From the IMG/VR virus record IMGVR_UViG_3300028844_000174, positions 1-22,820 of that record: a stretch of DNA of 22,820 nucleotides; one strand, given 5' to 3'. Shown one piece after another: positions 15,989 to 22,344 of this stretch; the first letter of the stretch is position 1; the number at the start of each line of letters is the position of its first letter. Origin of the DNA: a virus. Below the pieces are notes generated by a model, which worked only from the letters and a program-made list of their open reading frames with translations, was not told where the DNA came from and made no database searches. The position numbers and the translations under genes are program-made.

Positions 15989-16184
15989 GTTAGATTCTGA
16001 GTTGCAGGAGTATGTCGATACCTACTACCGCAACAGACCGCTGTTTGATGTCAGCCAGTTTGTACTTGGCTGGCAGGACTGTAAGGAAGGGAAGCCAGCT
16101 AACGTCGAGGACCGAGCATATGTTGCTGGTTACGGCGCTCGGTATTGGCATGAGCAAGAGCAAGATCGGAGGACGATGGTATGA
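15981..16184 (+). CDS. Small conserved phage protein (GWxDC...GYxxxY), 67 aa
   Basis: ATG 15981 is 6 bases after GGAGG (15970-15974); the longer frame from 15945 lies inside the previous gene. The sequence FVLGWQDCKEGKPANVEDRAYVAGYGARYWHEQ matches a recurrent short phage motif in which GWxDxxxG and YxxGYxxxY are repeated Gly/aromatic turns. Proteins of this kind are frequent in early regions of phages but have no assigned function. The stop overlaps the next ATG (ATGA). Confidence 0.65.
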   Translation: MPELDSELQEYVDTYYRNRPLFDVSQFVLGWQDCKEGKPANVEDRAYVAGYGARYWHEQEQDRRTMV

Positions 16185-16792
16185 CAGATGGAGTGGTAAA
16201 GATTCATGGTCGGGAGTACAAGACCGTAGCGTTACGGGTGGCGGAGTTTAACGAGCAGTATCCAGAGTGGTCTATTGTGACCGAGCTTGTCTCCGCTGAT
16301 GATGAAACTGTTGTGATGAAGGCGTTGGTGCTAGATCAGGACCAGCGCATAAGAGGGACAGGTTATGCGGAGGAGAAACGGACGGCATCTAAGATCAACA
16401 AGACAAGTGCAATGGAAAATGCGGAAACGTCAGCAATCGGCAGAAGCCTCGCAGCTTGCGGGTTTGCCGGTACTGAATTTGCGTCAGCAGACGAAGTTGC
16501 CAACGCCATTTCGCAGCAAAACATTGATGAGCAAGTTTCTTCCCAAGTCGCTACACTCATGGCCCATAATGAAGCCGTGAGAAATGATTGGGAAACCGTC
16601 TCTTACATGAAGGCGGCATTTGTGGAAAAAGATGCACTCGCATTTGCGGAGGCATGGCTGGAGTTAAGTGACGCGCAGAAAGAGGCGTTGTGGTTAGCTC
16701 CATCAAAGGGTGGTGTATTCACCACAGAAGAGAGGGCGTACCTACGCTCAAATGAAGTAAACGCAGCACGTAAGGAGATCATTAATGGATAG
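16181..16792 (+). CDS. Putative single-strand annealing (recombination) protein, 203 aa
   Basis: ATG 16181 follows GGAGGA (16168-16173) by 7 bases. The N-terminal domain has VALRVAEFNEQYPEWSIVTELV and MKALVLDQDQRIRGTGYAEEKR. It continues with SKINKTSAMENAETSAIGRSLAACGFAGTEFASADEVANAI. The last segment, ending in an ENxETSAIGRxLAxxG helix, recalls phage annealing proteins of the Rad52-like/Sak type, which pair complementary strands in recombination. The C-terminal half is helical (VRNDWETVSYMKAAFVEKDAL). It overlaps an SSB-like gene, a common pairing for recombination cassettes. The family assignment is tentative; an unrelated DNA-binding protein cannot be excluded. Confidence 0.55.
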   Translation: MTDGVVKIHGREYKTVALRVAEFNEQYPEWSIVTELVSADDETVVMKALVLDQDQRIRGTGYAEEKRTASKINKTSAMENAETSAIGRSLAACGFAGTEFASADEVANAISQQNIDEQVSSQVATLMAHNEAVRNDWETVSYMKAAFVEKDALAFAEAWLELSDAQKEALWLAPSKGGVFTTEERAYLRSNEVNAARKEIING

Positions 16793-17048
16793 TGAGTTAA
16801 TCGGGGGTCTATACCCGAAGAAGCGTGACGGTCAGCCAGACTTTGTTATTGGCAAGCTGTCAATCAACGTACCTCAGTTTCGCGAGTGGATGGCTGAGTA
16901 TCTGAAGGCCAACCCGGGTGGCGAGTGGATCAACATTGATATGTTGGTGAGCAAAGCCGGTAAGGGTTACGCGAAACTAGACACTTGGGAGCCTGAGAGC
17001 AAAGAGGAACCCAAGTCTGAGCCGGTGTCGGAAGACATCCCATTTTGA
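16785..17048 (+). CDS. SSB-like single-stranded-DNA-binding protein, 87 aa
   Basis: ATG 16785 follows AAGGAG (16772-16777) by 7 bases and overlaps the upstream gene by 8 nt. The body is a small beta-rich domain (LYPKKRDGQPDFVIGKLSI, GGEWINIDMLVSKAGKGYAKLDTW) compatible with an OB fold. It is followed by an acidic disordered tail that ends EDIPF, essentially the C-terminal tip by which bacterial SSB recruits replication and recombination proteins. It is shorter than typical SSB (about 170 aa) because the linker is reduced. Its position between a putative annealing protein and primase/helicase genes supports the call. Confidence 0.65.
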   Translation: MDSELIGGLYPKKRDGQPDFVIGKLSINVPQFREWMAEYLKANPGGEWINIDMLVSKAGKGYAKLDTWEPESKEEPKSEPVSEDIPF

Positions 17049-19317: not shown

Positions 19318-19466
19318 AGCGGGAGAGCGTTGAAGAATACTTGATGCGTGGGGGAAAAATAAAACAATTACCTCCAGAGCCAGAACTGGGACATAGGACA
19401 CAAACTAAAGGCCGCGTGAGGAACTGGCAGAGAGCAAGCACAGGAACTAAAGGGAGGCTAAAGTGA
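19314..19466 (+). CDS. Very small basic phage protein, 50 aa
   Basis: ATG 19314 overlaps the helicase stop (ATGA) and the TGA at 19464-19466 overlaps the next ATG. The start, MKRESVEEYLMRGGKIKQLPPEPE, fits a recurrent small phage protein with pattern V-x-E-(F/Y)-L-x-R-G-G-K-(I/V). The rest is Arg/Lys/Gly-rich. Tight coupling at both ends shows it is a real gene. Function is unknown; the strong positive charge would allow nucleic acid binding. Confidence 0.75.
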   Translation: MKRESVEEYLMRGGKIKQLPPEPELGHRTQTKGRVRNWQRASTGTKGRLK

Positions 19467-19672
19467 TGAAGTGGGAATCGGATCAGGTCGGCGGCAGTCA
19501 CTACAAGACCATGAAGATACAGCCTCTGGACTACGCGCTGCAGAATGGTCTGGGCATATGTGAACACGCGGTGGTCAAGTATGTGTCACGGTGGAAGATG
19601 AAGGGCGGGATACAGGATCTGGAGAAGGCCCGACACTACATCGACATTTTGATTGAGCAAGCTAATGCGTAA
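19466..19672 (+). CDS. DUF3310 family protein, 68 aa
   Basis: ATG 19466 is chosen (TGATG junction; GGAGG at 19453-19457 upstream) over the in-frame GTG 19463. Residues DQVGGSHYKTMKIQPLDYALQNGLGICEHAVVKYVSRWKMKGGIQDLEKARHYIDILIE cover the whole DUF3310 pattern: HY, IQPxDY, N-x-L, KYxxRxKxKxGxxDLxKAxHYID. This family is common in phages and sometimes annotated as a nucleotide kinase, but no P-loop is present and the fold resembles MazG-like helices. Its real activity is unproven. The end overlaps the next gene by 8 nt. Confidence 0.85.
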   Translation: MKWESDQVGGSHYKTMKIQPLDYALQNGLGICEHAVVKYVSRWKMKGGIQDLEKARHYIDILIEQANA

Positions 19673-20543
19673 CTGGAGCAACAGCGCGTCTATCGCAGTA
19701 GATGATCCGGGGCGTCACCAAACCGCTAAGGCGGCAGAACTATTGGTCAGGGATGAGCTAGGTGCGAGTAGGGTGTCAGAGTCAAATATTGGATGCTTGT
19801 GGGACTTAGAGTTCTGCGGCATAAAGATTGATGTGAAGACTAAGCAGCGGAATGTGTCGCCACAAGCGCACCATGACGCCCATGTTGAGGCGTCACAAAT
19901 TGACTACCCAGTTGATGCCTACGTTTTTTGTAGTAGCAACATGAAGTCAGGCAAAACTGAGATGGTCGGCTGGGCGTGGAAACACGACTTTGACCGGCTG
20001 TGTAGGAAGGTAAAGAAAGGCGATCCTGATGGCCCGTTCCGGGAGAGAGCGGATGCTTTCAAGATCAAGCACGATCTATTACGACCCATTGAGGGAATGA
20101 GGGAAGCTATGAGTGAGTTTTGGTTAGTAAAGGACAAGCAGCAGCTGCGCCAGCGGCTTGAGTTTTTCCAAAAGTATTTGGAAAGCGAATGGAACTGGGA
20201 ATACCCAGTTGAGTGGAAGGTAAAGCGATATGTGGCAAAGCGGTCGCTATCTCAGAATGCGCTCTTCCATGTTTGGTGCCGGGAGATGGCTGAACACTTC
20301 AAATCGAAGGGTGCAGATATCACTGAAGAAAAAATGAAAGAGCTGATAAAATACAAGCTGTTAGGTACGGAAGATCGGCAGATAAACAACACGGTGATCC
20401 CCGGGCAAGTGCGGGAGACCAGCGGGTTGGATCGTGGGGAGATGATGGACTTCATGGACGGTGTATTGGAGTGGGCGTTGGATCACGGCGTGAAACTCAC
20501 CTGTCCCCAAGACTCGGAGTACATGACACTTAAACGGGGGTAA
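19665..20543 (+). CDS. PD-(D/E)XK nuclease fused to NinB-like recombination domain, 292 aa
   Basis: ATG 19665 is the best start; the frame upstream (TTG 19653) runs further into DUF3310. Residues ~18-125 look like a restriction-endonuclease fold: E25, D47, then D56-V-K58 (IDVKTK), with DYPVDAYVF following, matching the E ... D ... (D/E)xK order. Residues ~155-292 start with FWLVKDKQQLRQRL and contain KRSLSQNALFHVWCREMAEHF (RSLSQN at 193-198). This resembles lambda NinB/Orf-type proteins, which bind ssDNA-SSB complexes and aid recombination. Fusion of a nuclease with a NinB-like part would couple end processing with strand handling. The nuclease call is by motif only. Confidence 0.65.
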   Translation: MRNWSNSASIAVDDPGRHQTAKAAELLVRDELGASRVSESNIGCLWDLEFCGIKIDVKTKQRNVSPQAHHDAHVEASQIDYPVDAYVFCSSNMKSGKTEMVGWAWKHDFDRLCRKVKKGDPDGPFRERADAFKIKHDLLRPIEGMREAMSEFWLVKDKQQLRQRLEFFQKYLESEWNWEYPVEWKVKRYVAKRSLSQNALFHVWCREMAEHFKSKGADITEEKMKELIKYKLLGTEDRQINNTVIPGQVRETSGLDRGEMMDFMDGVLEWALDHGVKLTCPQDSEYMTLKRG

Positions 20544-20546
20544 TGG

Positions 20547-21707
20547 ATGCACCATCCGCTACTAGACTTTTGTACCACTGAAAAACAGATTTCTGTAATT
20601 AGCTTGTGCATGGTTCAAGGGCTTTCGCAAAGGGATGCCGCAAAAGAATTACAATGCACTAGAGACGCCGTTAAAAACCAGATTCAAGCGGTAAAAGAAA
20701 AGGCCGCTCGCAGAGGTTATAGCCCGGACCATGATTGGCGGAACCCGGTTCCTGACGGTCATAAAATCAAGGGCGTCTCGACGTTCTATGATGAGGATGG
20801 CAAGCCGGTACGCCAGTGGGTTAAGTCTCAGACTGATGAGAAGCGCCAGTTTGAGATCCTTGTGGAACGTCTGGAGGCCGCGCAAGAGGGGCTAAAGCCG
20901 TTCAAGCCCGTGGCTGCGCCGAAGTCTGTTGATGACGATCTGCTCACGCTACTTACCATCACCGACTTTCACCTTGGGATGTACGCCTACGAAGCTGAGA
21001 CCGGGGATGATTGGGATATGCGTATCGCCCGGGACGTATTCCTTAATTCGGTTCACGATATGATCAAGGCATCACCTAAGTCTGGCACTGGAGTTCTATG
21101 TCAGCTAGGTGACTTCCTGCACTGGGACGGGATACTCAGCGTCACGCCGCAGTCGGGCCATATTCTGGACGCGGACACCCGGTACGGTAAGTTGGTAGAG
21201 ATGTCGATGTCTGTTATGACCGAGGCGGTCAGGATGATGCTGCGGAAGTTCGACAAGGTTGTGGTGATATCTGCCGAGGGCAACCATGACATCTCAGGTA
21301 GCATCTGGCTGCGGAAGCACATCAAGCACTTGTTTGGGGGTGAGCCGCGGCTGTCGGTGATCGACAACGACTTCCCCTACTACGCATACCTACACGGTGA
21401 GACGATGCTCGCGTTTCACCACGGTCACAAGGTTAAGCTGGCTAATCTTCATAAGCTGTTCGCTAGTGAGCCAAGGTTCCGCGAGATGTGGGGGTCAGCC
21501 ACCACAACCTATATCCATACCGGACATTACCATCATGAGCGGGTGGTGGAGGACGGCGGCGCTATCGCAGAGATGCACCCGACACTAAGTGGCAGGGATG
21601 CGTATGCTGCGCGAGGCGGATGGGTGTCACGCCGGGGGGCAAAGGCGATTACCTACCATAAGACCGAGGGCGAGATAGCCCGTATAACCGTGAGGCCGCG
21701 ATTGTGA
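20547..21707 (+). CDS. HTH plus calcineurin-like metallophosphoesterase, 386 aa
   Basis: ATG 20547 has a G-run (20536-20540) six bases upstream. Residues ~12-50 are a sigma/Fis-like helix-turn-helix (TEKQISVISLCMVQGLSQRDAAKELQCTRDAVKNQI). A linker follows, then a complete metallophosphoesterase core: D140-F-H142, GD189, GNHD (246-248), HHGH (291-294) and GHYH (326-329). The metal-binding set is intact, so it should be a two-metal phosphodiesterase or nuclease, possibly SbcD/Mre11-like. The HTH may recognise DNA. The architecture is known in other phages but its substrate is unclear. It lies between the nuclease-NinB fusion and the HNH gene, so a DNA-processing role is likely. Confidence 0.82.
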   Translation: MHHPLLDFCTTEKQISVISLCMVQGLSQRDAAKELQCTRDAVKNQIQAVKEKAARRGYSPDHDWRNPVPDGHKIKGVSTFYDEDGKPVRQWVKSQTDEKRQFEILVERLEAAQEGLKPFKPVAAPKSVDDDLLTLLTITDFHLGMYAYEAETGDDWDMRIARDVFLNSVHDMIKASPKSGTGVLCQLGDFLHWDGILSVTPQSGHILDADTRYGKLVEMSMSVMTEAVRMMLRKFDKVVVISAEGNHDISGSIWLRKHIKHLFGGEPRLSVIDNDFPYYAYLHGETMLAFHHGHKVKLANLHKLFASEPRFREMWGSATTTYIHTGHYHHERVVEDGGAIAEMHPTLSGRDAYAARGGWVSRRGAKAITYHKTEGEIARITVRPRL

Positions 21708-21961
21708 TTCCAGTATTTAAGATGCCGATGGGCAAGGGCGAGGTTGCGATCCTGACTGAGACAGTCGGCGGCGCAATGTCGAACACCACTAACAGAAGCC
21801 TGACTGACGTTTACACCGACACATGGCCCGATGGCATTACGGTTGATGTCAATCTGGAGAACTTTACCCGGGTGTGGCTCACCTGTCTCTGCTGCGAGCT
21901 AGAAGAGCTAGAGGGCGAGATGGAGTTTATTGTTGGTGAGGTCAGTACGGAGGTTCATTGA
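21704..21961 (+). CDS. Small acidic hypothetical protein, 85 aa
   Basis: The start is GTG at 21704 (GTGA overlap with the preceding stop); ATG 21722 is an alternative without a better ribosome site. Sequence: a beta-rich N-terminal half (VFKMPMGKGEVAILTETVGG), then FTRVWLTCLCCELEELEGEMEFIVGE with a CLCC cluster. No family is recognised. The CxCC cluster might bind metal, but only three Cys are present. It is coupled to the next gene by TGATG. Confidence 0.6.
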   Translation: MIPVFKMPMGKGEVAILTETVGGAMSNTTNRSLTDVYTDTWPDGITVDVNLENFTRVWLTCLCCELEELEGEMEFIVGEVSTEVH

Positions 21962-22344
21962 TGGCGGTTAAAAGAGACGCCGCGGACATTTGGTTTAGCA
22001 AGGCGGTCCGGGCGAGGGACGGCAAGTGCCTGCACACTGGTAGGACTGACGTATTAGAGTGCGCCCACATCTACGGACGCCGGGCTAAGATCCTGAGATG
22101 GTCCCTTGATAATGCGGTTAGCCTAACCCACAGCAGCCACCGTTACTTTACTGAGAACCCTGTAGCGTTCCACGATTGGCTGGAGCAGACGCTGGGCGAG
22201 GGGCATATGACGATACTGCGTGAGAAGGCGCGGGGTCATATGAAGACCAACGAGGCGCTGCGGCGAGAGATAGCCAAGCATTATCGGGAAGAACTCAAGA
22301 AATTAGAGGCAGATCCCGACTACAAATTAATTTCATTTAATTAA
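21961..22344 (+). CDS. HNH-endonuclease-like protein (NinG-like?), zinc ligands reduced, 127 aa
   Basis: ATG 21961 follows GGAGG (21949-21953) by 7 bases and overlaps the previous TGA. The HNH outline is present: ECAHIYGR (catalytic-type H36), WSLDNAVSL (N51) and SSHRYFTENPVAFHDWL (H60). The two CxxC zinc knuckles typical of this family are changed: CLHT at 23-26 and THSS at 56-59, leaving only C23. The C-terminal ~45 residues are a charged helix. The gene context (nuclease/NinB, phosphoesterase) makes a recombination nuclease plausible. It may be a zinc-independent HNH enzyme or an inactive relative. Confidence 0.72.
   Translation: MAVKRDAADIWFSKAVRARDGKCLHTGRTDVLECAHIYGRRAKILRWSLDNAVSLTHSSHRYFTENPVAFHDWLEQTLGEGHMTILREKARGHMKTNEALRREIAKHYREELKKLEADPDYKLISFN

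Follow-up and report, generated by a model that had tools for sequence, protein, structure and literature searches.

A predicted PD-(D/E)XK-type nuclease fused to a NinB/Orf domain as one state of an exchanged cassette in a tailed phage

The window analyzed here is the whole stretch of 22,820 nucleotides from IMG/VR record IMGVR_UViG_3300028844_000174, and its source is an uncultivated tailed phage. Its replication/recombination operon encodes primase zinc-finger-like, replication-initiation-like and DnaB-like helicase proteins, and an open reading frame of 292 amino acids that runs from an ATG at 19665 to a stop codon at 20541–20543 with no internal stops (Table 1). The ATG overlaps the 3′ end of the upstream DUF3310 gene; translation could alternatively begin at an in-frame TTG at 19653. 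A first-pass annotation, made from the sequence alone, had described this frame as a PD-(D/E)XK-type nuclease joined to a NinB-like recombination domain. It had also proposed that the fusion, with a putative annealing protein and an SSB-like protein of the same operon, suggests an unusual compact recombination system.

Table 1. Coordinates of the fusion gene, its parts and its neighbors in the window
Feature	Position	Strand	Remarks
Putative annealing protein	16181..16792	+	Conserved, PHROG_11717
SSB-like small protein	16785..17048	+	Conserved acidic DIPF tip
DUF3310 gene, left flank of the swapped slot	19463..19672	+	
Fusion gene, PD-(D/E)XK-type nuclease + NinB/Orf	19665..20543	+	292 aa
Predicted PD-(D/E)XK nuclease domain, residues 1–148	19665..20108	+	Candidate catalytic E25, D47, D56, K58
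Junction, purine-rich GAGGGAATGAGGGAAGCT 5′ of the Met149 ATG	20089..20111	+	Candidate internal NinB start
NinB/Orf domain (YbcN-like), residues 149–292	20109..20540	+	Met149 = standalone ninB start in relatives
DNA repair exonuclease-like gene	20547..21707	+	PHROG_704

The second half of the protein is NinB-like, as first described. The Pfam NinB model scored 33.2 bits on the C-terminal half against a cut-off of 23.8, PHROG_72 matched at E = 4e-24, and the NCBIfam PRK09741/YbcN profile also matched, below that model's cut-off. The motif KRSLSQNALFHVW lies at residues 192–204, and lambda NinB (1pc6) ranked fifth, with a probability of 1.0, in a fold search with the full-length protein. The C-terminal half is a complete NinB/Orf domain. 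These 144 amino acids are the part that resembles lambda Orf (NinB) and DLP12 YbcN, which are single-domain proteins, whereas the window protein adds an N-terminal nuclease. Lambda Orf binds both ssDNA and SSB, and a role in recombinase loading has been suggested for it (PMC4118853).

The fusion recurs in related phages. A scan of IMG/VR found 12 other loci matching the fused protein at 63–95% identity or better, with both halves in one open frame in L001–L007 and L010–L012; L008 and L009 are partial at contig ends, and L009 is identical to the window across the portion present. A later scan added L161, which has the same fusion point and a far more diverged nuclease half that keeps the E, D, D-x-K residues. 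The first-pass annotation had allowed that the frame could be a sequencing error in a phage whose relatives encode the halves separately; relatives do encode them as separate genes, but because the frame recurs intact in independent contigs at 63–95% identity and again in the distant L161, a sequencing or assembly error was ruled out as its origin. Wherever dS could be estimated, dN/dS was 0.03–0.11 for both halves, and judged by these ratios purifying selection acts on each of them. A megablast search of the fusion region against phage records gave no match. UniProt entry A0A516LWE3, an unnamed protein from an uncultured phage, has 292 amino acids and is 94% identical across the nuclease half; because length and identity agree, it is probably the same fusion, already deposited, and no description of a fusion of this type was found in the literature searched.

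The N-terminal half is recognized far less readily. Pfam, PHROG and NCBIfam models gave nothing above chance on residues 1–148, a sequence search against solved structures and tblastn against plasmids gave nothing meaningful, and tblastn against phages returned a single record, MW202481. Profile searching with this half recovered 297 viral relatives, and the 80 best of these were retained; bacterial genome assemblies yielded seven more. Almost all of the relatives are standalone proteins of about 165–200 amino acids. The residues originally named as an E, D, D-x-K layout (E25, D47, D56 and K58) sit at those positions of the frame. In an alignment of 38 sequences, with relatives down to about 21–30% identity, D47, D56, V57 and K58 are invariant, but E25 is the weaker element: position 25 is E in all fused forms and Q in several standalone relatives. 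The conserved nuclease motif exceeds chance occurrence.

Structure prediction, proposed at the outset as a check, returned a restriction-endonuclease core. The AlphaFold2 model built on the 38-sequence alignment (mean pLDDT 86) has the helix–strand order of the PD-(D/E)XK core. The first long helix carries E25, D47 immediately precedes the next strand, and D56 and K58 lie within the strand after. Foldseek comparison with solved structures placed NhoI and Eco15I of the BisI family at the top and DpnI next, with Hjc, PvuII and EcoRV among the lower matches (best E = 2e-3, probability 1.0, TM-scores 0.4–0.5). From these models the PD-(D/E)XK fold class of residues 1–148 is well supported, whereas the exact family is not, because of the TM-scores. 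Two of the nearest viral models carry the name “Restriction endonuclease.” The BisI family belongs to the PD-(D/E)XK fold by crystal structure and has a QxK variant of the motif (PMC11347163). NhoI and Eco15I share with the window protein the core order, the candidate helix glutamate, the aspartate and the lysine at about 14% identity; they differ in having QxK where the window protein has DVK, and so lack of the PD-QxK active site sets it apart from BisI enzymes. Unlike for these comparison enzymes, there was no evidence for 5mC dependence of the window nuclease. The profile search uncovers a large family of predicted phage nucleases that neither Pfam nor PHROG matches; some of its members resemble restriction enzymes.

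Fusions of a nuclease to NinB have been described with HNH nucleases, namely the Orf-HNH (DUF968) proteins, which include phiNM1 Gp16 (PMC4118853; PMC12817073). Gp16 has a predicted NinB fold and an HNH nuclease and nicks DNA; RecA enhances its cutting, and phages that lose Gp16 are impaired in DNA replication (PMC12817073). These proteins resemble ours in combining a NinB/Orf fold with a nuclease in a phage protein whose gene lies in a DNA-metabolism context, but their NinB domain is N-terminal and followed by a C-terminal zinc-finger HNH domain, whereas the window protein has an unrelated PD-(D/E)XK-type domain at its N terminus. Membership of the window protein in the HNH/DUF968 group was considered and rejected: it has no such match in Pfam, PHROGs or NCBIfam, and it ends with NinB. 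The joining of a nuclease to NinB is a known idea, and what is new here is an unrelated nuclease at the opposite end; no PD-(D/E)XK–NinB fusion was found in the open-licence papers searched. Phages have thus joined a nuclease to NinB/Orf at least twice, with unrelated nucleases and at opposite ends, which suggests that coupling of cutting to recognition of SSB-coated ssDNA is useful.

Many close relatives have a separate ninB whose product starts with MSEFW or MGEFW, equivalent to Met149 of the window protein, and in most of them a DUF3310 gene lies upstream. The slot between DUF3310 and ninB holds one of several types of content or is empty: type A is the window nuclease and is always fused; type B is a separate protein of 172 amino acids with a QVK motif, like the QxK of the BisI enzymes; type C is a separate protein with residues in the order E...D...DIK; and type F is an unrelated small gene. 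In L022, a type D nuclease (DVK) lies directly 5′ of ninB with no DUF3310 alongside. Profile comparison indicated homology among types A, B and D (probabilities of 96% for A–D, 99% for B–D and 83% for A–B) and found no link between type C and the other types. Type C proteins are encoded at L016:1861–2286, L036:823–1305 and L037:251–733; neither Pfam nor PHROG matched the one in L036, and Pfam gave no match to the one in L016.

The nuclease halves of the fused proteins form one clade (tree support 94/91). In a NinB-domain tree, fused proteins are scattered and their state requires seven changes, at least five of them forced by well-supported branches, which is no better than shuffled labels. 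Identity between the window and L004 is 0.98–1.0 across the nuclease core and through the initial 45 nt of ninB, then falls to about 0.8; therefore, a recombination breakpoint lies inside ninB. Between L011, whose slot is occupied, and L027 and L040, whose slots are empty, NinB is 94% identical at the nucleotide level, and the absence of the nuclease from such close relatives means that it is dispensable. The nuclease half is one state of a repeatedly exchanged cassette. Since the cassette moves between NinB backbones together with an in-frame junction, many independent fusion origins are not needed. Because close relatives lack or replace the cassette, the nuclease is not integral to the recombination pathway, and the “unusual compact recombination system” goes too far for a swapped half with partly restriction-like standalone relatives.

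The two other members of the proposed system held up in part. The putative annealing protein is conserved, carries the motif NKTSAMENAETSAIGRSLAACG, and has relatives also in phages with a standalone nuclease, but it matched no functionally named family and no solved structure significantly. The C terminus of the SSB-like protein is an SSB-type EDIPF tip conserved across its relatives, but the protein too matched no functionally named family in the libraries searched and no solved structure significantly; from its sequence it is possibly a divergent phage SSB family. Among the standalone-nuclease loci, 38 have 3.3 kb or more of upstream sequence, and 12 of these contain a relative of one or the other protein, a raw count uncorrected for background. 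A replication-initiation-like gene immediately precedes the nuclease in L088, L101 and L138, and a primase/helicase follows it in L088 and L138. Downstream in the window, the exonuclease-like protein has an N-terminal sigma-region-4-like helix-turn-helix, and a NinG/Rap-like protein is encoded a little 3′ of the fusion at 21958–22344 (PHROG_5034, 3e-15). In lambda, ninB and ninG are likewise near each other.

We give about an even chance to the reading that the fusion is a two-domain phage DNA enzyme whose NinB half directs the predicted nuclease to SSB-coated ssDNA or recombination intermediates. The NinB domain would bind SSB-coated ssDNA and thereby probably position the nuclease at gaps, forks or recombination intermediates; the nuclease would cut or nick there, and the resulting ends or ssDNA would feed phage recombination and replication. 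This would be a mode like that of the NinB–HNH protein Gp16, except that the nuclease is unrelated and attached to the opposite end of NinB. The NinB match, the predicted nuclease fold with its invariant residues, the recurrence of the intact fusion, the purifying selection, the homologous nuclease genes that adjoin ninB, the two trees and the Gp16 precedent argue for this reading. Against it stand the modest TM-scores of the predicted fold and a nuclease that sequence libraries do not recognize, the empty slots of L027 and L040, and the standalone relatives beside methyltransferases, which point to sequence-specific restriction rather than SSB targeting. Gp16, the sole characterized analogue, bound dsDNA and not ssDNA (PMC12817073), which also counts against it.

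Those methyltransferases bear on the leading alternative, which we consider unlikely: the nuclease could be a restriction-type endonuclease that acts against host or competitor DNA, with NinB a passenger or a helper in recombination with the cut DNA. Restriction enzymes sit near DNA methyltransferases, and a DNA methyltransferase lies within 2 kb at 11 of the 63 distinct standalone nuclease loci, touching the nuclease gene in L092, L099, L101 and L123 and overlapping it at some of the 11; in L154, from a bacterial genome, a few bases separate a C5 cytosine methyltransferase gene from the nuclease gene downstream. The nearest solved structures are restriction enzymes, and frequent exchange of unrelated nucleases in one slot, as seen here, is typical of conflict genes. 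However, neither PF01555 nor PF00145 matched in the window's partial record, and methyltransferases of these two families were not found in 15 of the 17 records of the fused/NinB group, the window's included, all counted on partial records. The NinB fusion and the operon position also point to DNA metabolism instead. As an observation in its own right, the nuclease relatives that adjoin DNA methyltransferases (L154:3568–5348, L092, L099, L101, L116, L123, L130 and L156), which occur both in phages and in bacterial assemblies, are candidate unrecognized restriction–modification pairs.

The occupied and empty sites of close relatives (L011 versus L027 and L040) would also fit a homing-type element, in which the nuclease cuts cassette-less relatives close to the DUF3310–ninB junction and repair from a cassette-bearing genome follows with the help of NinB. 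The cassette common to the window and L004 shows a recent transfer, and PD-(D/E)XK is a known homing family (PMC6083498). We hold this to be improbable: the conserved flanks allow ordinary homologous recombination, which yields the same pattern, several standalone relatives are found within replication operons instead of being scattered, and no target site was identified.

Placed just behind it, and quite improbable, is that cassette exchange produced the fusion as a neutral by-product, with domains that act separately and NinB possibly made also from Met149. All fused forms retain that methionine, which is the ancestral ninB start, with a purine-rich stretch upstream of it; relatives encode homologous nucleases as separate genes, and the in-frame junction travels with the cassette. 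Yet every type A cassette found beside ninB, as far as L161, is fused and none is separate, and the upstream stretch is unexceptional: of the window's 207 in-frame internal ATGs, 19 score equally well. Least probable of all is a mobile nuclease cassette with its own mediator, which would cut cassette-less genomes while the attached NinB loads the annealing protein onto the broken DNA; if true, one polypeptide would couple cutting to repair templated by the cassette-bearing genome.

Near-identical NinB proteins with the nuclease fused, separate or absent form a natural comparison set, so the effect of fusion is directly testable. A DUF3310 neighbor was not found as a general rule among the 63 standalone nuclease loci but is present in MW202481, where the family nuclease (L067:1269–1778) is standalone, follows a DUF3310-like gene and is unannotated in the deposited record. 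In an unrelated phage (L095:3436–4360), a standalone family nuclease is immediately preceded and overlapped by a NinB-like gene, the reverse of the order in the fusion.
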